A DNA stretch of 43,237 nt, from NCBI GenBank assembly GCA_029213165.1, contig JARGNO010000019.1, positions 21,239 to 64,475 of the forward strand. Reading direction: 5' to 3'. The notes beneath the pieces were generated by a model. That model saw nothing but the letters and a program-made list of their open reading frames with translations, had not been told where the DNA came from and ran no database searches. This stretch comes from Minwuia sp. GTDB lineage: Bacteria; Pseudomonadota; Alphaproteobacteria; Minwuiales; Minwuiaceae. Within the stretch, counting starts at the first letter, position 1. The number at the start of each line of letters is the position of its first letter. Positions 5,348-15,067 of this stretch are shown in pieces. Made by a program: the position numbers and the translations under genes.

Positions 5348-7282
5348 TCAGGCGGCGGCGAACAGGAACGCAACACTTGTACCCTTGCCCGTTTCGCTGC
5401 TTATCTCCAGCTTTCCACCATGCAGTTCGATCAGCATGCGGGCCAGCGGCAGCCCCAGCCCGGCACCGTCCTTGGCGGAATAGGCGTTGACCCGCACAAG
5501 CTCGAATGGTCTGACAATCCGCGCCCTCATCTCTTCAGGTATGCCCCTACCGCTGTCAGAGACACTCAGTCTGATCTCTCCATGCAATTCGGTGATCTCG
5601 ATCAGGACCTGGCTGTTGCCGGGTGCATGTGTGATGGCATTGTCCAGCACATTGCCAAGGGCCTGGGCAATGGCATCTGGATCGATGGTCGCCATGATGC
5701 TTTCCCGGTGGTGCCGCAGATGCATCTCGACGCCTGCCGGGACCGCCTTTGCCGCATGGTCGGCAATGCAGCGCCGGGCGAGTTCGACAATGTCGGTCGG
5801 TCGGGCATTCAGACTGTAGTTGCCTGACTCGATCCGTGAAATGTCGAGAACACCGTCCACCAGCTTGAGCATTTTGCGGCTGCTGGCGTGAATGTCGGCC
5901 GCGTAGTCGCGGTAGGCGACTGGCTGGATTGGTCCAAGCATCTGATCCTTCATCATCTCGGAGAAGCCCATGATCGCGTTCAGGGGCGTGCGCAATTCGT
6001 GGCTCATCCCGGCCATGAACTGGTTGCGGGTGTCGTTGATGGTCTCCACGAGCAACAGCTTGGCCTGCTGCCGGCGCAGGCCAAGCGCCAGTGCAATCGC
6101 GAAGTAGAGGGTTGCGATGGTGCAGCCGATAGCCGCCAGATAGTGATTGATCTCCAGATACGGTGTGATGTCGAACACCCGCAGGTAGAGGTAGACCGAG
6201 GTGACGTGACTGAATGCCCAGCCGACGGTTGCCACAGCCGCATTGTCGATGCCGCGGCACCAGAGGTAGATCGCGGTTCCCAGGACCAGGACCGCGCCGG
6301 GTCCCGCGACGAATGCGATCAGAAGTGTATCCACTGGCGCCGGAAGCAACGGGGACGCCGTCGTCAGCAGCCCGGCGATGATCAGCAGACGCATGACGAC
6401 ATTGATGCGGGGCGTATGCTCAGCCGTATTCAGATAGCGCTGAAAGAAGCGTACACCGCTCGCAAAAAGCAGTCCCAGAACTACGAAATGGAGCTGGTTC
6501 GCGTGCTGCCACGCGCCTGGCCAGATCCAGACCTGACCGAACCCGGTTGCGACCGCCACGTAGAGCGCATAGCTGAGACTGAACGGCACGAAGTCGAGAC
6601 AGGCCTTGTCACGCACGGTCAGATAGACGGTCAGGACATAGAGACAGACTGCTATCACCGCCCCGAACAGAAGGCTGAGCAGGATCTGGTCCAGCACGAC
6701 CGTACGCGCGAAATGCGCCTCCCCCAGAAACTCGATGGGGGCAAGCAGGACGGATGTGCTCTCGACCTTCAGAAACACGACAGTTGTCGCATTTGCGGTC
6801 AGTTGAACCGGGAATGCCGGGAAATGACTTTGCGGGAAGCTTTCGGGCAAAGGAAGGGTATCACCACGCGCGATCCGTAGATGGTCGCCGCCGTTTGGCC
6901 CCGGCAGATAGGCCGTGACGGAATCAATGTAGGGGAAACGATAGACGAGCACCCCTGACTGCACATGGCTCGCGGCGTTCGAAAGGGTCAGCCGCAGCCA
7001 GAGCGGCCGGTCACTGAACCCGAGGTGCAGTGACCGCTGCGGCCCGTCGATGAAGGTCAACTTCCGGGCATCCGACAGCTCGGCCGTCCCGGTCTCATCA
7101 AATGCATATGCCAGCGAGAGACCGACACCCAGGTCGTGCGGCACCGGATTGGCAACGCGATCCCGGGCCGGTGTGAACAGCAGCAGGCTGAGCACCACCA
7201 GAGCGACGGTGCCGATGATCCAACCACTGAAGGGCGGTATCCGGAGAAACCTGATCTTCCGTCTGACTGATCGTCTGAACAT
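5348..7282 (-). CDS. 7TMR-DISM-type sensor histidine kinase (orphan)
   Basis: A 644-residue kinase. After an N-terminal membrane helix comes a periplasmic beta-rich domain (roughly residues 45-190) of the 7TMR-DISM extracellular type. About seven membrane segments follow (roughly 195-400), then a HisKA/HATPase core: phospho-acceptor H428 (GMSHELRTPLNAIMGFSE), N-box (NVLDNAITHAPG), G1 (DSGRGIP) and G2 (GAGLGLPL). 7TMR-DISM receptors are thought to bind small extracellular ligands such as carbohydrates. I chose ATG 7282, which has AGGAG about 13 bases upstream; a TTG at 7351 would add 23 residues. It converges on the preceding kinase and diverges from the MarR-GNAT gene. No response regulator is adjacent. 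Confidence 0.87.
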   Translation of the reverse strand: MFRRSVRRKIRFLRIPPFSGWIIGTVALVVLSLLLFTPARDRVANPVPHDLGVGLSLAYAFDETGTAELSDARKLTFIDGPQRSLHLGFSDRPLWLRLTLSNAASHVQSGVLVYRFPYIDSVTAYLPGPNGGDHLRIARGDTLPLPESFPQSHFPAFPVQLTANATTVVFLKVESTSVLLAPIEFLGEAHFARTVVLDQILLSLLFGAVIAVCLYVLTVYLTVRDKACLDFVPFSLSYALYVAVATGFGQVWIWPGAWQHANQLHFVVLGLLFASGVRFFQRYLNTAEHTPRINVVMRLLIIAGLLTTASPLLPAPVDTLLIAFVAGPGAVLVLGTAIYLWCRGIDNAAVATVGWAFSHVTSVYLYLRVFDITPYLEINHYLAAIGCTIATLYFAIALALGLRRQQAKLLLVETINDTRNQFMAGMSHELRTPLNAIMGFSEMMKDQMLGPIQPVAYRDYAADIHASSRKMLKLVDGVLDISRIESGNYSLNARPTDIVELARRCIADHAAKAVPAGVEMHLRHHRESIMATIDPDAIAQALGNVLDNAITHAPGNSQVLIEITELHGEIRLSVSDSGRGIPEEMRARIVRPFELVRVNAYSAKDGAGLGLPLARMLIELHGGKLEISSETGKGTSVAFLFAAA

Positions 7283-7387
7283 CAGATCTTCAATTCTCCT
7301 AGCTTCAGGGGAAACAGCACCATACTGCGCTGCCAGTCCGATCGTGGCCAATCCCGATTGCGAAATTATGGGGTGAGGGGATTTGAA

Positions 7388-7426
7388 GTTTCATATATAT
7401 GCTTGTGGCATCTAATTGCATGAAAC
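7388..7426. promoter_or_regulatory. Inverted repeat in an AT-rich divergent promoter region, candidate operator
   Basis: GTTTCAT (7388-7394) and ATGAAAC (7420-7426) form a perfect seven-base inverted repeat with a 25-base spacer. Inside it lies the ten-base palindrome CATATATATG (7392-7401). The stretch is strikingly AT-rich compared with the rest of the window. It sits just before the MarR-GNAT start (7449) and in the region from which the leftward kinase must also be transcribed. MarR proteins usually bind palindromes in their own divergent promoter regions, so this is the natural operator candidate. Confidence 0.45.
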
Positions 7427-7448
7427 AGGCATTCATGAAGGTGAACCC

Positions 7449-8384
7449 GTGGATGAAACCCTGAAACTGAGAGCAGAAGCCCTGCGCCGCTTCAATCGGG
7501 CCCATACGAGCCTGGTTGGCTTGCTGCAACAGGCCTATCTGGACAGCGGTCTCTCGCTGACAGAGGTGCGCGTTATCTACGAGATTGCAAACCGGGATGG
7601 TCTGACCATCACTGACCTCGCGCGCGACCTTGCCCTCGACAATGGCTACCTCAGCCGACTTGTGCGAGGGCTGAAGGATCGTGAACTGATCGTTTCCTCC
7701 GTCTCCCGGGCCGATGCCCGTCAGCAGATCCTTGCACTGACGGACGCGGGCGCGGCGCTGTATGCTTCGCTCTCCGTCAGATCGCAGAACGAGATGATGG
7801 AACTGATCTCCGGCCTGGAGGAGCAGGATCAGCGGAGCCTCATGACCGCGCTTCAGGCTGCCACAAGGCTGCTGGCGAGGGCTTCCAATCGGCCCGTGCC
7901 GACACCTGTCATCACGCTCAGGGGCCATCGGCCGGGCGATATGGGTTGGGTCATTGCGGCACATGGTCGAATCTACGCGACCGAGTTCGGCTGGGATCAC
8001 ACGTTCGAGGCGATGGTGGCAGACATTGCCGCCGCATTCCTGCGCGATTTCGATCCGGAATGGGAACACTGCTGGATGGCGGAGATCGACGGCGTTCCCG
8101 TCGGCTCGGTGACGGTTGTCAGGAAATCGGCCGAAGAGGCGCAATTGCGCCTGCTGGTCATCGACCCGTCTGCGCGTGGCCTGCGGCTGGGTGAGCGGAT
8201 GGTCGCGGAGTGCATTCGATTTGCGGGCGAGAAGGGCTACAGCAAGCTGGTGCTCTGGACAAACGACAACCTGCATGCGGCACGGCGGATCTATCAGAAA
8301 GCCGGGTTCCGGCTGGTCGAGGAGGAACCGCATCACAGTTTCGGTGTCGATCTGGTCGGGCAGAACTGGGAACTGGTGCTTTGA
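7449..8384 (+). CDS. MarR-type regulator fused to a GNAT N-acetyltransferase
   Basis: A 311-residue two-domain protein. Residues about 10-145 form a MarR winged-helix domain: the DNA-reading region is LTITDLARDLALDNGYLSRL, followed by the wing and KDRELI. Residues about 155-311 form a GNAT acetyltransferase with the acetyl-CoA loop near residues 243-250 (RGLRLGER) and the C-terminal motif NLHAARRIYQKAGFRL. MarR-GNAT fusions are a recognised family, but their substrates are mostly unknown. I chose GTG 7449, preceded by GAAGGTGA; a TTG at 7416 would add 11 residues but has no ribosome site. The stop codon overlaps the start of the EamA transporter gene, implying a shared role: sense, acetylate and export a small molecule. 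Confidence 0.88.
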   Translation: MDETLKLRAEALRRFNRAHTSLVGLLQQAYLDSGLSLTEVRVIYEIANRDGLTITDLARDLALDNGYLSRLVRGLKDRELIVSSVSRADARQQILALTDAGAALYASLSVRSQNEMMELISGLEEQDQRSLMTALQAATRLLARASNRPVPTPVITLRGHRPGDMGWVIAAHGRIYATEFGWDHTFEAMVADIAAAFLRDFDPEWEHCWMAEIDGVPVGSVTVVRKSAEEAQLRLLVIDPSARGLRLGERMVAECIRFAGEKGYSKLVLWTNDNLHAARRIYQKAGFRLVEEEPHHSFGVDLVGQNWELVL

Positions 8385-9277
8385 ACCGGCGTGCGGGTCT
8401 CACGGCCGCTGCGGCCACCGGTATCCAGGTCGGACTTGGGATCGTTGCCACGCGCTTCGTGGTCGATCAGGCAGGTCCGGTATCACTCGCGTTCTTCCGT
8501 TACGCCCTCGCTTTCCTGTGTCTCCTGCCCGTTGCATTGAAGATTGCGCCATGGCCGTTTTCCAGGCGTGACGTGGTGCCGGTGGTCCTGCTGGGCATTG
8601 TCCAGTGCGGACTGGTGATCGTGTTCCTGAATATCGCGCTGCAATACATCCCCTCGGCCCGTGCCTCCCTGATCTTTGCCACGTTTCCCCTGCTGACCAT
8701 GGTCTTGTCGGTTGTCTTCGGGAAGGAGGCATTCAGCGCCCGCATCGCCTTTGCCGTGATTGTCACGATCATCGGGGTCGGTCTGGCGCTGGGGGAAAAG
8801 GTGACCGAGACCACAGCCCCCGACGCAGGCTGGATCGGTGAACTCGCGGCCTTCGCGGCTGCCCTGTCGGGCGCGGCCTGTTCGATCTTCTATCGTCCCT
8901 ACCTGATGCGGTATCCGACGGTCTCTGTCGGATCGCTGGCCATGCTTGCCTCCGTCATCTTCCTTGCCGCGGCGGCAGTGCCCGAAGGGCTCTTCGACGC
9001 CTTGCCCGCATTCACGGACATCGGTTGGCTGGCCGTGATCTTCATCGGCACTGGCAGTGGTGCCAGCTATTTCCTCTGGCTCTATGCCTTGCGTAACGCG
9101 GGCGCCACGGAAGTCACCATCTACCTTGGCCTCAGCCCTGTGACAGCCGCATTGGGCGGTGCCGTACTGCTGGGCGAGATCCCTGGTGCTGCAACGTTCA
9201 CCGGTCTGGTGCTTGTCCTTGCGGGTCTGTGGCTCGCGTCCCGCCAGCAGCCACCGCCGGCGCCAGGGCCTGCCTGA
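8381..9277 (+). CDS. EamA/DMT-family transporter
   Basis: A 298-residue inner-membrane protein with about ten hydrophobic helices arranged as two EamA repeats (roughly residues 5-135 and 150-290). Family features include an early FFRYALAFLCLLP stretch and the late LSPVTAALGGAVLLGE motif. Members export metabolites and amino-acid-like compounds. The start is inferred to be TTG 8381, which overlaps the previous TGA as TTGA; this gives the normal length for the family, whereas the nearest upstream ATG (8210) would add 57 residues of non-membrane sequence read from within the GNAT domain. The overlap implies translational coupling to the MarR-GNAT protein. The substrate is unknown. Confidence 0.87.
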   Translation: MNRRAGLTAAAATGIQVGLGIVATRFVVDQAGPVSLAFFRYALAFLCLLPVALKIAPWPFSRRDVVPVVLLGIVQCGLVIVFLNIALQYIPSARASLIFATFPLLTMVLSVVFGKEAFSARIAFAVIVTIIGVGLALGEKVTETTAPDAGWIGELAAFAAALSGAACSIFYRPYLMRYPTVSVGSLAMLASVIFLAAAAVPEGLFDALPAFTDIGWLAVIFIGTGSGASYFLWLYALRNAGATEVTIYLGLSPVTAALGGAVLLGEIPGAATFTGLVLVLAGLWLASRQQPPPAPGPA

Positions 9278-9334
9278 CGGCAATCGGCTCTGATCTTGCT
9301 TGAAGTGGCCAAACGTCTCTGGCTTGGTGTCGAA

Positions 9335-10186
9335 ATGAAACCGCTTCCGGTCCTGATCATCGTTCCCGTGCTTGCCTTGCTGCTGGCTTTGCCTGCAGCG
9401 ACCCCGGCGCATGCTCAGCTTGGCAGTCTCTGGCGTGCCATTACGGGGCAGGATGAGGGACCGAAGCCGGACAAGGGATTTGGCCCCTTCAGAGAAGAGG
9501 CAAGGCGTATCGAGGATGCGCTGAACTGTGGCCGTGTCGTGGAACAGGCGAATGATGCCTTCTCGGACCTGCGTCGGCACTGCATCCTGGGCGACAATCG
9601 CACGGTTCGCGTCACCATCGTCGAACCTGTCGGACACGAGGGGCTGACCAAGCGCGTCCGGCTGACATGGACGGACAATGGTACTGGAGAGCAGCGCGCG
9701 CTCAGCGCCCCAGCACACGTTGACCGGTCTGCCGCGCAGGCGGCTCTCAGCGGGCTGGCGGCGCTGTTCGTGCCCGAAAAGTCGGATCACCTGATCGATT
9801 TGTTCACGGGCGGAACCGATGGTGCCTTTGAGTCGGGTCCGTTCAGTGTCTCTGTGGTTCACCAGTCTCGGGCGGGGCTCGATCTTCGCACGGTCGAACT
9901 GCGAGACGGCAACTATGAAGCGCTGGCTGAATCAGAGGCCCGCAGCGCCCGCCCTGGCTTTGACCGGTGCCTGTTCATCGTTCGCAACATCGATGTCCTG
10001 AAGAACCTGGAAATCGATGGCGAGCCGCGCCCGCAGAGGTCCGACCTGCACCTCACCTATTTCCTGCACGCGAAGCGGGGCGACCGGTTCCTGTGTGAAC
10101 TGCATGATTCCGGTTACTACCGCATCAGGATCTCGCAGAAGGACGGTGAAGAGTTTCGCACACTCGCTCACGGCAATATCCGCTGA
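9335..10186 (+). CDS. Secreted protein of unknown function
   Basis: I do not recognise this 283-residue protein. It begins with a clear Sec signal peptide: a short basic start (MKP), a hydrophobic core to about residue 20, and likely cleavage after AHA at residue 27. The mature part is mixed alpha/beta with four cysteines (C65, C83, C212, C254), enough for two disulfides in the periplasm. It has no membrane helix after the signal. I chose ATG 9335 because the signal peptide starts there; a TTG at 9296 would add 13 residues. It lies 57 bases after the EamA gene and about 100 before the channel gene, so it may belong to either transcript. Confidence 0.7.
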   Translation: MKPLPVLIIVPVLALLLALPAATPAHAQLGSLWRAITGQDEGPKPDKGFGPFREEARRIEDALNCGRVVEQANDAFSDLRRHCILGDNRTVRVTIVEPVGHEGLTKRVRLTWTDNGTGEQRALSAPAHVDRSAAQAALSGLAALFVPEKSDHLIDLFTGGTDGAFESGPFSVSVVHQSRAGLDLRTVELRDGNYEALAESEARSARPGFDRCLFIVRNIDVLKNLEIDGEPRPQRSDLHLTYFLHAKRGDRFLCELHDSGYYRIRISQKDGEEFRTLAHGNIR

Positions 10187-10284: not shown

Positions 10285-12669
10285 ATGAACATGGGGATCG
10301 CGCGCACTCTGCTGGCCTTCTCGATCCTGGTCCTGTTCGGGTTTGCCTTGCCTGGCGCAGATGCGGTGAAGGCGCAGGCACTGCAGGTACTCAAGCAGGC
10401 CGAGAAGCGCAGCGAAGCCGCAGCCCAGCCCACCACACCAGGTCAGCAGAGCCTTGAAACCCTGCTGGAGCCGACCGTCCGGAAACTGGTGGAGGAAAAA
10501 CTTGCCGAAGGCAGCGCCACCAGGCAGGGCGCCGCGCCGGATCAGGGTGGCGGGGATCCTTTCGCCGCGCTGATCGATGGCGCGCGCAACAGCATGAACG
10601 GCATCACCAAGGGTATCGACGGAGTCATTGCCATCTGGCCCCTTGGTCAGAGCGAGATCGAGGACGCCTTCATCCTGCTGACGGATTTCGAGGGCTGGCC
10701 GCGCATGTGGACCGGTATCGCCAACCTTTTGCTGATGCTGGCAGGTGGGGGCTTTCTGGCCTGGATGACCCGGCGCATGTTTGGTCAACTGGTGGTCGCC
10801 CCCGCGGCAATACGCGGGCGCCTGTTGCCGTCCCTGACCGTGACAGTCGTGGTGCTGTTGCGCGACCTGCTGGTACTGGTGGTGATGGTCGCTGCAGGCT
10901 TCCTGCTGTCGCTGGTCTGGTTCAGTCAGTTCGACCCGATGCGGATATTCCTGATCAGCTATCTCGCCGTGACAGTCGTCGTGGTGGCCGGCTGGTTCCT
11001 TGGCAATGCGCTGTTTGCCCCGAACGCGCCGGAGCGACGCATGGTCGATCTGGACGACCGTTCCGCACGGCGCATGGTCTACTGGCTTGCCATCGTGCTT
11101 GGTCTGGCCGCGCTGGCCGGATTCAGCATGGGAATGCTGCGCCTGCTGGGCATGCCGCAGGCCATGCTGGACATCGTGCAGCTCGGTGTCGGCGGCCTGC
11201 TTGCCCTGGTCACGCTTTTCGCTGTCATCAGAACTCCGACCGACCCGCAAAGGATACCTGCAAGCACTGGTCTGAGTGCATTGCTGCACCAGCTCTTCGG
11301 ACGCTATCGCCGCGTCTGGCTGGTGGTCGCGACAGCCATGTTCCTGCTGCTCTGGTCCCTCAGCGTCTTTTCCCCGGACCCCAGCAAGACCGTTGCCGTC
11401 TTCGGCCTGTTCGGGGCACTGGCTGGCGGCCTGTTCGTCGCCAGACTGCACAATCCGGCCGAGCCGGAGGATGAGACACCTGCGGTCCCGGCGGACGATG
11501 CCGGGGAAGCCGGGATGCTGGAAATGAAGCAGAGCGGTGGTCTGCTGCCGTCGGTGCGCCAGATCGCCTATGTGGTGCTGGCACTCGTCGGCCTTGCGGC
11601 ATTCCTGCATGTGGTGGCGCTGGACATTGTTGCCCTGCAGCAGAGCCCGGTTGGCCAGTTGGCGACCGAAGTGCTGCTGGATGTCCTTGTCATCCTGCTG
11701 GTCGCTTCCATTGGCTGGGCGCTGGTTCAGCGGACAATTACCCGTTTCATTGACCGGGAGAACGAGCGCGCGATGGCTGCCGCTGCCGATCATGCCGTCG
11801 ATGAGGATGGCCTGGGTGGTCTGATCGTCTCCCGCTTCGGCACGCTGCTGCCCCTGATCCGTGGCTTCATCCTGACCATCCTTGTCGCCATCACGGTCAT
11901 GGTGGTGCTGTCGTCCCTGGGGCTGGATATCGGCCCGCTGATCGCAGGTGCGGGTGTTGTCGGCATCGCCATCGGCTTCGGCGCCCAAGCGCTGGTGCGT
12001 GACATCATCTCCGGCATCTTCTTCCTGATCGATGATGCCTTCCGCGTCGGCGAATACGTCGAATTCGGGGAGATCCGGGGACAGGTGGAACAGATCTCGA
12101 TCCGGTCCATGCGCCTGCGTCACCATCGGGGCGCCATTCACACCGTGCCCTTCGGCGAATTGCGCTCCATCACCAACTACAATCGTGACTGGGCGATCTA
12201 CAAGCAGGAATTCCGGCTGCCCTACGACACCGATGTCGACAAGGTCCGCAAGATCATCAAGAAGGTCGGGCTGCGGCTGCTGGAGGATCCGGAGCTCGGG
12301 CCGAAGTTCATTCAGCCGCTGAAGTCCCAGGGCGTGTTCCGTATCGAGGAGGGGGCACTGATCCTGCGCACCAAGTTCACCTGCAAGCCGCGCGAGCAGT
12401 TCATGATCCGCAAGGCGGTGTTTCAGGAGGTGAAGAACGACCTCTACGCGGCAGGTATCGAACTGGCGCAACGCCGGGTCCAGATCGAATGGCCCGACTG
12501 GGCGAAGGGTGACGGCGAAACGGAAACCATGAATGCGGACACGCCGACTGCGGTTCAGAAACCTGGGGGCCCGCAGACGCCACCCGCAGGCGCCGTAGCG
12601 GCCGCAGGCGCGGCGGGACTGGTGATCGCGCAGAACACCCAGACCAAGGAATATCCGGACGAGCCCTGA
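10285..12669 (+). CDS. Large MscS-family mechanosensitive ion channel
   Basis: A 794-residue membrane protein, much larger than the 286-residue E. coli MscS and closer in build to the multi-helix relatives. It begins with a signal-like helix, then a charged, probably periplasmic stretch (about residues 30-130) and some ten membrane helices. The MscS core is at about 520-745: the pore helix GPLIAGAGVVGIAIGFGAQA, then LVRDIISGIFFLIDDAFRVG, then the beta and alpha-beta cytoplasmic domains. Such channels open when the membrane is stretched and release solutes during osmotic downshock. The tail after residue 745 is proline/alanine-rich with a short hydrophobic patch. ATG 10285 has TAGGGGGGA just upstream. 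The oxidoreductase gene follows after four bases. Confidence 0.9.
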   Translation: MNMGIARTLLAFSILVLFGFALPGADAVKAQALQVLKQAEKRSEAAAQPTTPGQQSLETLLEPTVRKLVEEKLAEGSATRQGAAPDQGGGDPFAALIDGARNSMNGITKGIDGVIAIWPLGQSEIEDAFILLTDFEGWPRMWTGIANLLLMLAGGGFLAWMTRRMFGQLVVAPAAIRGRLLPSLTVTVVVLLRDLLVLVVMVAAGFLLSLVWFSQFDPMRIFLISYLAVTVVVVAGWFLGNALFAPNAPERRMVDLDDRSARRMVYWLAIVLGLAALAGFSMGMLRLLGMPQAMLDIVQLGVGGLLALVTLFAVIRTPTDPQRIPASTGLSALLHQLFGRYRRVWLVVATAMFLLLWSLSVFSPDPSKTVAVFGLFGALAGGLFVARLHNPAEPEDETPAVPADDAGEAGMLEMKQSGGLLPSVRQIAYVVLALVGLAAFLHVVALDIVALQQSPVGQLATEVLLDVLVILLVASIGWALVQRTITRFIDRENERAMAAAADHAVDEDGLGGLIVSRFGTLLPLIRGFILTILVAITVMVVLSSLGLDIGPLIAGAGVVGIAIGFGAQALVRDIISGIFFLIDDAFRVGEYVEFGEIRGQVEQISIRSMRLRHHRGAIHTVPFGELRSITNYNRDWAIYKQEFRLPYDTDVDKVRKIIKKVGLRLLEDPELGPKFIQPLKSQGVFRIEEGALILRTKFTCKPREQFMIRKAVFQEVKNDLYAAGIELAQRRVQIEWPDWAKGDGETETMNADTPTAVQKPGGPQTPPAGAVAAAGAAGLVIAQNTQTKEYPDEP

Positions 12670-12673
12670 ACAG

Positions 12674-15067
12674 ATGACAGATACCATGCACATTCCCGCC
12701 TATTGCGCCCAGTGCAGGTCGCGTTGCGGCTGCATCGCGGTGGTCGTGGATGATCGCCTGACCGGCATCGAACCGATGCCGGATCACCCGACCGGCGCGA
12801 AACTCTGTCCGAAGGGCCGCGCCGCGCCGGAACAGGTCTATCACCCTGATCGCCTGACGCGGCCCATGCGCCGGACCACGCCGAAGGGTGCCGGACCGAC
12901 GGAATGGCACCCGATAAGCTGGGACGAAGCCCTGAACGAGATTGCGGAACGGATGGGCGGCATCCGCAGCACACATGGTGCGGAGCAGGTCGCCTTTTCC
13001 GTCACCACCCCAAGCGGGACGCAGCTTTCGGATGGCATCGCCTGGATCGAACGTTTCATTCGCGCCTTTGGCAGCCCGAACACGATCTACTCGACGGAAA
13101 TCTGCAACTGGCACAAGGACGAGGCCGCCAAGTTCACCACCGGTCACGGCATCGGTGTCCCCGACTTCGCAAACACCGGCTGCATCCTGCTGTGGGGCAA
13201 CAATCCCGCGAATACCTGGCTCGCCCGGGCAGGCGAGGTGCAGAAGGGGTTGCGGAACGGCGCGCGTATGATCGTTGTCGACCCGCGCCCGACCACATTC
13301 GCCAATCGCGCCGACTGCTGGCTGCAGGTGAAGCCCGGCACGGACCAGGTGCTCGCACTTGGCCTGGCGCACCTGCTTGTCCGGGATGGCGGGTTCGACA
13401 AGGGATTCATGCGCGACTGGAGCAACGGCCCCTTGCTGCTGCATGGCGACGAGAAGCGGTTCCTCCGGCAGTCGGACCTGATGACGGATGGCTCCACTGA
13501 TGTCCTGTTCGGCCAGGCATCGACCGGCAACCTGCTGCGCTATGACCGGTCGATGGGGCGGTGGCTTGATGATCCCGCCGACCTGTTGCTCGACAGCGAC
13601 TGCATTGTCGGGACGACCGCTGGCGCAGTCTCCTGCAGGTCTGCGTTTGCCGCATACCGTGAACTGCTCGATCGTCACCGGCCGGGTCATGTTTTCGGGG
13701 TTACGGGCGTTCCTGTAGAGACACTCGAGAAGGCTGCGACGATCCTTCGGAACAGTGCGTCGGTCGCCTGGTACGCCTGGAATGGTGTTGGTCAGAGCAA
13801 CACGGCCACGCAAACCGACCGTGCCATGTCATTGCTGCACGCGCTGACGGGCAGTCTTGGAATTCCGGGGGGCAATGTGGCGGGCGGCATCGCCCGCTTC
13901 AACGACATTTCCGGCCCGGAGCTGCTGTCCCCGGATCAGCGGGCGAAGGCACTCGGACTGGATGAGCGTCGATTGGGGCCACCTGCAAATGCCTGGGTAA
14001 CCGGACGCGATGTCTATCGGGCAGTGCTGGGGCAGGGGCCTTATCCGGTGCGTGCGCTGTTCTCCTTCGGCGGCAACCTGCTGGCATCACAGCCTGATAC
14101 GGCGCTCGCCCGGCAGGCGCTCGAAGCGTTGGAATTTCATGTTCATACCGACTTCTTCCTGAACGCCACGGCGGAATACGCGGATATCGTGCTGCCGGTC
14201 GCAACATCCTGGGAGCGGGAGGGACTGAGCAAGGGCTTCGACAACAGCCTGGAGGGTCAGCGGCATGTGCAACTGCGCCCGGCAGTCGTTGCACCCTTGG
14301 GAGAATCCCGGTCGGATATCGACATCGTGCTGCAACTTGCTGACCGTCTTGGCATGTCAGACAGGTTCTTCGGTGGAAACGTGGACCAGGGCCACGATCA
14401 TGCGTTGGCCCCAACCGGTCTGACAGTCGACGACCTGCGCCGCAATCCAGGCGGGGTCAGTCTTGAGGGTGATGTCGTATATCGCCCATTCGCAATACCA
14501 GATGCCTCGACGGGCAGGGTTGCAGGCTTCAACACACCGACCCGCCGCCTGGAGGTATGGTCGGAATTGCTGCAACAGCACGTCGGATCCGGTCTGCCGT
14601 ATCCGCAAGACAACGTCGGCGCATCAGATCCTGCCCTGCCTCTGACGCTGGGCGGTGCGAAGACGGTGGCCTATTGCCATAGCCAGCACCGCAATCTTCC
14701 GTCCCTGCGCAGGCTGATGCCTGACCCGTTACTGGAAATCGGCACGGCGACGGCGGCGGAAAGGGACATCGCGGATCGTGACTGGGTTCGGGTCACCACA
14801 GCGACAGGCAGTTTCGTCGCCCGCGCCAGGGTGACCGCGAAACTGCGCGAAGGCATGGTGTTCGCCCAGCATGGCTGGTGGGTGCCCGATCAGGCCGGTC
14901 AGCCCTATGGCGGTGGATCGGCCGGTTCCATGGGCGCCAGCATGAACCAGGCAGTCAGTACCGCCGACTGCGATCCGGTCAGTGGCTCCATCCCGCTCAG
15001 ATCAAGCGCTTGCGAAGTGGTTCGGCTTGCCGGTGATCATGCATCCGCACGGGCAGGTGCGGTGTAA
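12674..15067 (+). CDS. Molybdopterin oxidoreductase of the DMSO reductase family (orphan)
   Basis: A 797-residue molybdoenzyme. An N-terminal [4Fe-4S] site is visible as C11-x2-C14-x3-C18 and C45 (KLCPKGRA). C144 in STEICNWHKDE is the probable molybdenum ligand. WGNNPANTW and FSFGGNLLASQPD are cofactor-binding stretches, and the C-terminal beta-barrel (molydopterin dinucleotide-binding) starts near residue 655. There is no twin-arginine signal, so it should be cytoplasmic. No electron-transfer or membrane subunit is adjacent, and the substrate is unknown. It starts four bases after the channel stop with a poor ribosome site, suggesting translation coupled to that gene. Its last 31 bases overlap the tail of the convergent TetR gene. 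Confidence 0.9.
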   Translation: MTDTMHIPAYCAQCRSRCGCIAVVVDDRLTGIEPMPDHPTGAKLCPKGRAAPEQVYHPDRLTRPMRRTTPKGAGPTEWHPISWDEALNEIAERMGGIRSTHGAEQVAFSVTTPSGTQLSDGIAWIERFIRAFGSPNTIYSTEICNWHKDEAAKFTTGHGIGVPDFANTGCILLWGNNPANTWLARAGEVQKGLRNGARMIVVDPRPTTFANRADCWLQVKPGTDQVLALGLAHLLVRDGGFDKGFMRDWSNGPLLLHGDEKRFLRQSDLMTDGSTDVLFGQASTGNLLRYDRSMGRWLDDPADLLLDSDCIVGTTAGAVSCRSAFAAYRELLDRHRPGHVFGVTGVPVETLEKAATILRNSASVAWYAWNGVGQSNTATQTDRAMSLLHALTGSLGIPGGNVAGGIARFNDISGPELLSPDQRAKALGLDERRLGPPANAWVTGRDVYRAVLGQGPYPVRALFSFGGNLLASQPDTALARQALEALEFHVHTDFFLNATAEYADIVLPVATSWEREGLSKGFDNSLEGQRHVQLRPAVVAPLGESRSDIDIVLQLADRLGMSDRFFGGNVDQGHDHALAPTGLTVDDLRRNPGGVSLEGDVVYRPFAIPDASTGRVAGFNTPTRRLEVWSELLQQHVGSGLPYPQDNVGASDPALPLTLGGAKTVAYCHSQHRNLPSLRRLMPDPLLEIGTATAAERDIADRDWVRVTTATGSFVARARVTAKLREGMVFAQHGWWVPDQAGQPYGGGSAGSMGASMNQAVSTADCDPVSGSIPLRSSACEVVRLAGDHASARAGAV

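Follow-up and report, generated by a model that had tools for sequence, protein, structure and literature searches.

The stretch of DNA analysed here (the window, 43,237 nucleotides in length) comes from Minwuia sp., an alphaproteobacterium, and contains a two-gene unit in which a fusion of a MarR-type regulator with a GNAT acetyltransferase is followed on the same strand by the gene of an EamA-type exporter (Table 1). An earlier note, made from the sequence of the window, had read regulator and acetyltransferase as one protein and had the exporter start overlap its stop codon as TTGA. Both descriptions hold. Pfam places MarR and GNAT domains in a single open frame, and a TTG at 8381, the possible start of the EamA gene, overlaps the fusion's TGA at 8382-8384; an identical TTGA is seen in the four congeners that have the pair (L010-L013). 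For the fusion itself, the GTG at 7449 is favoured as the start over a TTG at 7416, because L010-L012 carry ATG at the corresponding codon and because initiation at 7416 would abut the operator described below.

Table 1. Coordinates of the MarR-GNAT/EamA unit and of the features around it in the window.
Feature	Position	Strand	Basis
MarR-GNAT fusion, 311 amino acids, GTG start	7449..8384	+	Pfam, AlphaFold (AF2) model, fold match
EamA (drug/metabolite transporter) exporter, 298 amino acids, TTG start	8381..9277	+	Pfam, subfamily tree, co-occurrence
Predicted operator, 21-bp palindrome ATATATGCTTGTGGCATCTAA	7395..7415	.	De novo motif, site score, genome scan
Inverted repeat of the earlier note, arms GTTTCAT / ATGAAAC	7388..7426	.	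Sequence; congener alignment
Divergent 7TMR-DISM histidine kinase, neighbour judged to lie outside the unit	5348..7351	-	Pfam; neighbourhood comparison
Gene without Pfam or NCBIfam match, 296 amino acids, behind EamA	9296..10186	+	Family scans, locus comparison

Both halves of the fusion score above their Pfam cut-offs. MarR_2 (PF12802, 38.7 bits against a cut-off of 27, E 1.1e-9) and MarR (PF01047, 34.7 bits against 24.6) match a winged helix-turn-helix (HTH) domain at about residues 1-145, and Acetyltransf_1 (PF00583, 57.4 bits against 20.7, E 2.2e-15) matches a GNAT domain at about residues 153-311. The helix-strand order of a MarR winged HTH is also seen in an AlphaFold model built from a 67-row alignment. 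Because the predicted template modelling score (pTM) is 0.59, as against a mean predicted local distance difference test score (pLDDT) of 90.1, the two domains are well modelled, but their mutual placement may not be. Compared by fold, the GNAT half reaches Z 17.5-19.4 with 50 acetyltransferase entries listed, and the matches listed include phosphinothricin acetyltransferases (PAT), SpeG and enzymes of the RimI/Ard1 type. In sequence searches, the MarR domain matches chains named "Multidrug resistance operon repressor" and MepR, and no solved chain covering both halves is found among the matches listed, which in one search are the best 60 of 164.

Alignment columns show Tyr282, E179, E187, W167 and Y176 to be invariant in 97 of 97 fusion homologs. 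We take Tyr282 to stand at the usual catalytic place of GNAT enzymes, and the other four at catalytic or substrate-side places; the invariance of Tyr282, E179 and E187 suggests that catalysis has been kept. One alternative is that the GNAT half acetylates a protein substrate, perhaps the MarR domain of the same chain, and so relieves repression. RimI- and Ard1-type folds do score on par with small-molecule acetyltransferases. The lysines of the MarR domain, however, are not conserved: the most lysine-rich column has K in 30 of 97 homologs, and in a 67-sequence alignment none of the columns that are invariant, or nearly so, is a K. Self-acetylation of a MarR lysine is therefore unlikely, and acetylation of a protein of any kind strikes us as improbable.

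Proteins of the MarR family contact DNA in dimeric form, and as a rule a small ligand releases them from it. Upstream regions were taken from 97 MarR-GNAT loci; 12 other loci had been excluded before this, namely the duplicates L041, L042 and L074, the tandem copy L035, the distant full-length homologs L029, L031 and L036, and the GNAT-only loci L030, L032, L033, L034 and L037. A palindromic motif was learned de novo from 40 loci, with the genus members left out, and the threshold was set at 99% of 1,940 dinucleotide shuffles. The resulting consensus, ATAGTTGACTAAGTCAACTAT, precedes MarR-GNAT genes of many phyla, and it exceeds the threshold in all 40 training loci, in 47 of the 50 that were held out and in all 7 of the genus. 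We also drew 398 phylum genomes, 43 of which match the fusion profile (36 with both domains, 7 with GNAT only); 34 of the 36 two-domain loci were examined, the remaining two (G000 and G114) being already in the earlier set, and the operator passes in 28 of the 34. These counts are not independent, since many loci are closely related and at least one of the 34, L152, is possibly the same as L060. Two or more sites are found in 54 of 90 loci outside the genus, and their spacing is exactly 21 bp, or two helical turns, in 49 of 57 cases and in none of one shuffle set.

The site of the window (ATATATGCTTGTGGCATCTAA) has ATGC/GCAT where the family consensus has TTGAC/GTCAA. Its score of 15.4 is reached by a fraction of 0.0005 of the 1,940 shuffles. 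The palindrome is nested exactly between the arms at 7388-7394 and 7420-7426 of the inverted repeat in which the earlier note had looked for MarR control. That repeat is present, but alignment with L010-L013 shows that its arms are not conserved, while the nested palindrome is, and we therefore discarded the repeat as operator; MarR control of the region is supported by the palindrome found across phyla, and not by the arms. In the genome of the window (G000), the genus form of the operator matches once with up to three mismatches allowed. This single match points to a strictly local autoregulator, and a wider regulon in G000 was rejected for want of a second match. The consensus form has 7 matches per strand in the same genome, as against 22 for a reversed control, which is the level of chance. 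Between 7250 and 7550 no promoter-like match is seen on the plus strand. The fusion is predicted from sequence to bind at 7395-7415. As a separate observation, three congeners (L125-L128; G002, G004 and G001) each have one or two more weak matches to the genus form, with two to three mismatches, which may be additional sites or due to chance.

The earlier note had treated fusion and exporter as a pair, and the pair is indeed conserved outside this strain: it is present in 4 of 6 congeners, in another genus of the family, in seven further families of the class and in loci assigned to several phyla. Among 143 genomes, the window's own included, 26 match the fusion with an E value of 1e-20 or lower, a count that takes in genomes with a GNAT-only match. 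As judged by an EamA profile, the partner lies directly downstream in 13 of the 20 closer full-length loci (window included), or in 13 of 23 if the distant full-length loci L029, L031 and L036 (28-31% identical), which have no EamA by the same profile, are counted. A named scan confirmed 550 of at least 591 stretches; the best 80 loci by similarity were kept, or 77 after removal of three duplicates, and 31 of these are paired. In all, 44 of 97 loci have a partner EamA on the same strand with a profile match that begins within 260 bp. L043, whose 129 bp of downstream DNA are too short to reveal a partner, and L027, whose EamA belongs to another subfamily, are counted as unpaired. All pair counts rest on the profile, and gene calls, which misplaced the start of the window's EamA and failed to pick up those of L073 and L091, were used for overlaps and neighbours only. 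Paired loci belong to the Alpha- and Betaproteobacteria and to records assigned to Rokuibacteriota, Methylomirabilota, Myxococcota, Deinococcota and Chloroflexota, although several of the non-proteobacterial records are short contigs of metagenome bins (e.g., L047, L052, L069 and L073) for which misassignment is possible. On a quick tree, the pairing label requires 20 changes, whereas each of 500 shuffles requires more (mean 32.1), and no fewer than five changes are imposed by branches with good support; pairing thus clusters by lineage, yet was gained or lost repeatedly. In one genome (L019 and L035; G100:C43), two tandem MarR-GNAT genes precede a single EamA gene.

The EamA frame itself matches PF00892 with 120.5 bits (E 7.7e-35) over two EamA stretches. 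In a quick tree with long branches, 42 partner EamAs (2 of the 44 were too short and were left out) fall on one side of a branch that separates them from 10 others, comprising six paralogues from the window's genome, the L027 neighbour and three from other loci, with a Shimodaira-Hasegawa-like approximate likelihood-ratio test (SH-aLRT) value of 93. When the window's EamA is searched in the 143 genomes at a cut-off of E 1e-45, chosen so as to divide the partner subfamily from other EamAs, 14 matches are obtained. All but one (G008:C34) adjoin a MarR-GNAT gene, and all 13 genomes that hold a partner-type EamA also carry the fusion. Partner EamAs thus form one subfamily that, at this cut-off, is nearly exclusive to MarR-GNAT neighbours. 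G000 holds about 23 EamA genes (a hand count from 46 domain matches) in 4.1 Mb, and we therefore estimate that chance would place an EamA gene next to the fusion with a probability well under 1%.

The best reading of the unit, to which we assign a probability of about 0.5, is that of an autoregulated one-operon device by which one compound is detected, acetylated and exported. The earlier note had inferred such a sequence of steps and had seen in it a possible detoxification or resistance device; its reading is supported in part. A dimer of the MarR-GNAT protein would sit on its own operator and repress both its own gene and the translationally coupled EamA gene. Binding of a small amine-bearing ligand to the fusion would lift repression; the GNAT half would then acetylate the ligand, or a close relative of it, with acetyl-CoA (acetyl coenzyme A), and EamA would export the acetylated product or the excess compound. 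As the level of ligand drops, repression would be restored. Detection, acetylation and export fit together because the operator is local, the catalytic domain is part of the same chain and the exporter gene is coupled. MarR-GNAT fusions are widespread in bacteria, and it may be, though we hold this somewhat more tentatively, that the same design extends across phyla: a regulator-enzyme fusion with a shared operator, often present twice at a spacing of 21 bp, and with a dedicated EamA in many lineages, such that one amine would be sensed, acetylated and expelled by two genes. With a conserved operator whose genus form is single in the genome, a promoter reporter would be a direct handle for a ligand search, and a ligand so found could be tried both as the acceptor of the acetyl group and as the cargo of EamA. 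Should the proposal be true, it would at one stroke give a function to regulators, enzymes and exporters that now form a large orphan family.

Several observations weigh against this proposal. One concerns the acetyl-CoA loop, which in the GNAT family has the motif R/QxxGxG/A. The loop of the window reads RGLRLG, with residue 246 (8184-8186) in place of the first glycine; all 7 genus members have Arg or Lys at this position, where the 90 other homologs all have Gly, and the second glycine is retained in 96 of 97 homologs. A basic residue at the first glycine is tolerated in other GNATs. Nevertheless, given this replacement, acetyltransferase activity of the window's fusion is not assured. The replacement would also suit a GNAT half that acts as the sensor, whose binding of acetyl-CoA or acyl-CoA sets DNA binding by the MarR half, such that the operon reads carbon status; that the fusion is often found without the exporter would be in keeping with such a role. 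Conservation of the tyrosine at the usual catalytic place and of E179 and E187 suggests instead that catalysis is retained, and we regard a sensor role of the GNAT half as quite unlikely.

The operator evidence has its own exceptions: three held-out loci (L020, L026 and L069) and six loci of the phylum sample (L177, L178, L179, L180, L182 and L185) fall below the threshold, and in a test of covariation between operator and protein the GNAT columns score like the MarR columns, as expected from shared descent. The exporter is a less constant feature still. Two of the six congeners have no EamA partner, and the profile finds none in the 34 phylum-sample loci (about 4 kb each); across the phylum draw, where the best few candidates per genome were scored, it passes only in G000, together with one paralogue there. 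Fusions thus often work without EamA. Because none of these 34 loci has the EamA and 28 keep the operator, the core would seem to be an autoregulated MarR-GNAT protein to which EamA is a recurrent, lineage-dependent addition. The absence of a partner from 53 of 97 fusion loci (L043 with its short flank included) and from the whole phylum sample might even suggest that EamA is a mere passenger of the operon, with an unrelated cargo of its own. This we consider very improbable, given that 13 of the 14 EamAs of the subfamily adjoin MarR-GNAT and that fusion and exporter overlap by 4 bp in 26 of the 43 pairs that were called, a number in which one locus figures twice.

Finally, the neighbour survey found no metabolic neighbour that recurs across lineages and would indicate the substrate, which also counts against the proposed device. 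After EamA, the next commonest neighbour cluster is that of ATP-binding cassette (ABC) ATPases, at 11 loci, six of them in Microvirga. In six Microvirga loci (L076, L077, L085, L087, L100 and L119), same-strand ABC-transport genes directly precede the pair, and in L076 one of these is of the oligopeptide/dipeptide type by Pfam. Behind the pair of Azospirillum (L065) come genes for an M20 peptidase and for a solute-binding protein of family 5. These peptide-type neighbours are hints to a substrate that are limited to their lineages. Along with a weak match of the window's EamA to TIGR00950 ("carboxylate/amino acid/amine transporter"; 85.4 bits, below the cut-off of 230.2), they would fit metabolite overflow in place of detoxification, in which case a normal amino acid or amine is sensed and acetylated and its surplus exported, as with EamA-type exporters of O-acetylserine and cysteine. 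The restriction of such neighbours to single lineages speaks against it, however, and overflow seems to us an unlikely account.

How does the proposed device compare with known systems? Homologs of the fusion bear bifunctional HTH/GNAT product names of NCBI in annotated RefSeq plasmid records (tblastn), so the architecture is already known to annotators. Members of this class have the same full-length architecture, with 34-51% identity over 95-98% of the protein in the alpha- and betaproteobacterial records listed; it is, however, a naming class, and no EamA product is listed next downstream in five plasmid regions of the PLSDB gene tables, which are incomplete. The fusion shares its MarR domain with MexR and MepR, classical MarR repressors of efflux genes, whose operons also have a palindromic operator near the efflux gene. 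Here, in contrast, the acetyltransferase is in the regulator's own chain, and the regulator lies upstream within the operon that it is thought to control. We found no publication testing a MarR-GNAT fusion in the open-licence literature, in which few subscription journals are covered. The product name appears among strain-group genes of Cutibacterium acnes in an excerpt of PMC13295564.

The nearest studied analogue that we found is PA2576-PA2578 of Pseudomonas aeruginosa, a cluster with a similar logic. PA2577, an Lrp/AsnC regulator, forms an operon with the GNAT gene PA2578 and is reported to bind the intergenic region and to repress the divergent EamA gene PA2576, for which no cargo is named (PMC8707732). 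As in the window, a GNAT and an EamA-type exporter are grouped with a local regulator, the EamAs being likened by description; unlike in the window, regulator and GNAT are separate genes, the regulator is of the Lrp and not the MarR type, and the EamA gene is divergent rather than coupled. The GNAT half of the fusion is only distantly matched by a structure titled PA2578 (3owc), at 22% identity by fold, E 2.1e-8 by profile and E 0.022 when a single sequence is the query. What seems undescribed is the operator that MarR-GNAT loci share, together with the dedicated EamA subfamily.

Turning to the other neighbours, the earlier note had suggested that the divergent 7TMR-DISM kinase may share the control region. 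Pfam confirms the kinase, and it stands beside the unit in L010 and L011. It is not seen in the roughly 1.5 kb fetched upstream of L012 and L013, which keep pair and operator, and the histidine kinase found upstream in L013 is another one, encoded on the strand of the pair; we therefore dropped the kinase as a member of the unit. A promoter-like match on the minus strand, with its first hexamer at 7394-7389, adjoins the operator (1 found, 0.3 expected), so the operator region could still affect the kinase in this strain. On the other side of the unit, the gene at 9296-10186 keeps its place behind the pair in the five paired genus loci and may possibly be a member of the operon.

Of 51 loci that lack EamA, 28 are followed by a called gene on the other strand. 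Pfam searches of 20 of the 23 same-strand next genes (all but those of L045, L060 and L116) turned up a scatter of families (HAD, EAL, GGDEF, SDR, methyltransferase, PadR and others), along with the EamA of the other subfamily in L027, and a second recurrent partner was rejected. A link with anti-phage defence was likewise set aside, there being just weak CasR matches to the HTH. On pLI47-1 (L137), a plasmid of Listeria innocua that is typed as mobilizable, a MarR-GNAT homolog with 29% identity is flanked by copB and a gene for lincosamide resistance. Farther along the window, 10285-12669 is a large gene for an MscS-type mechanosensitive channel, and 4 bp on begins a molybdopterin oxidoreductase gene (12674-15067).
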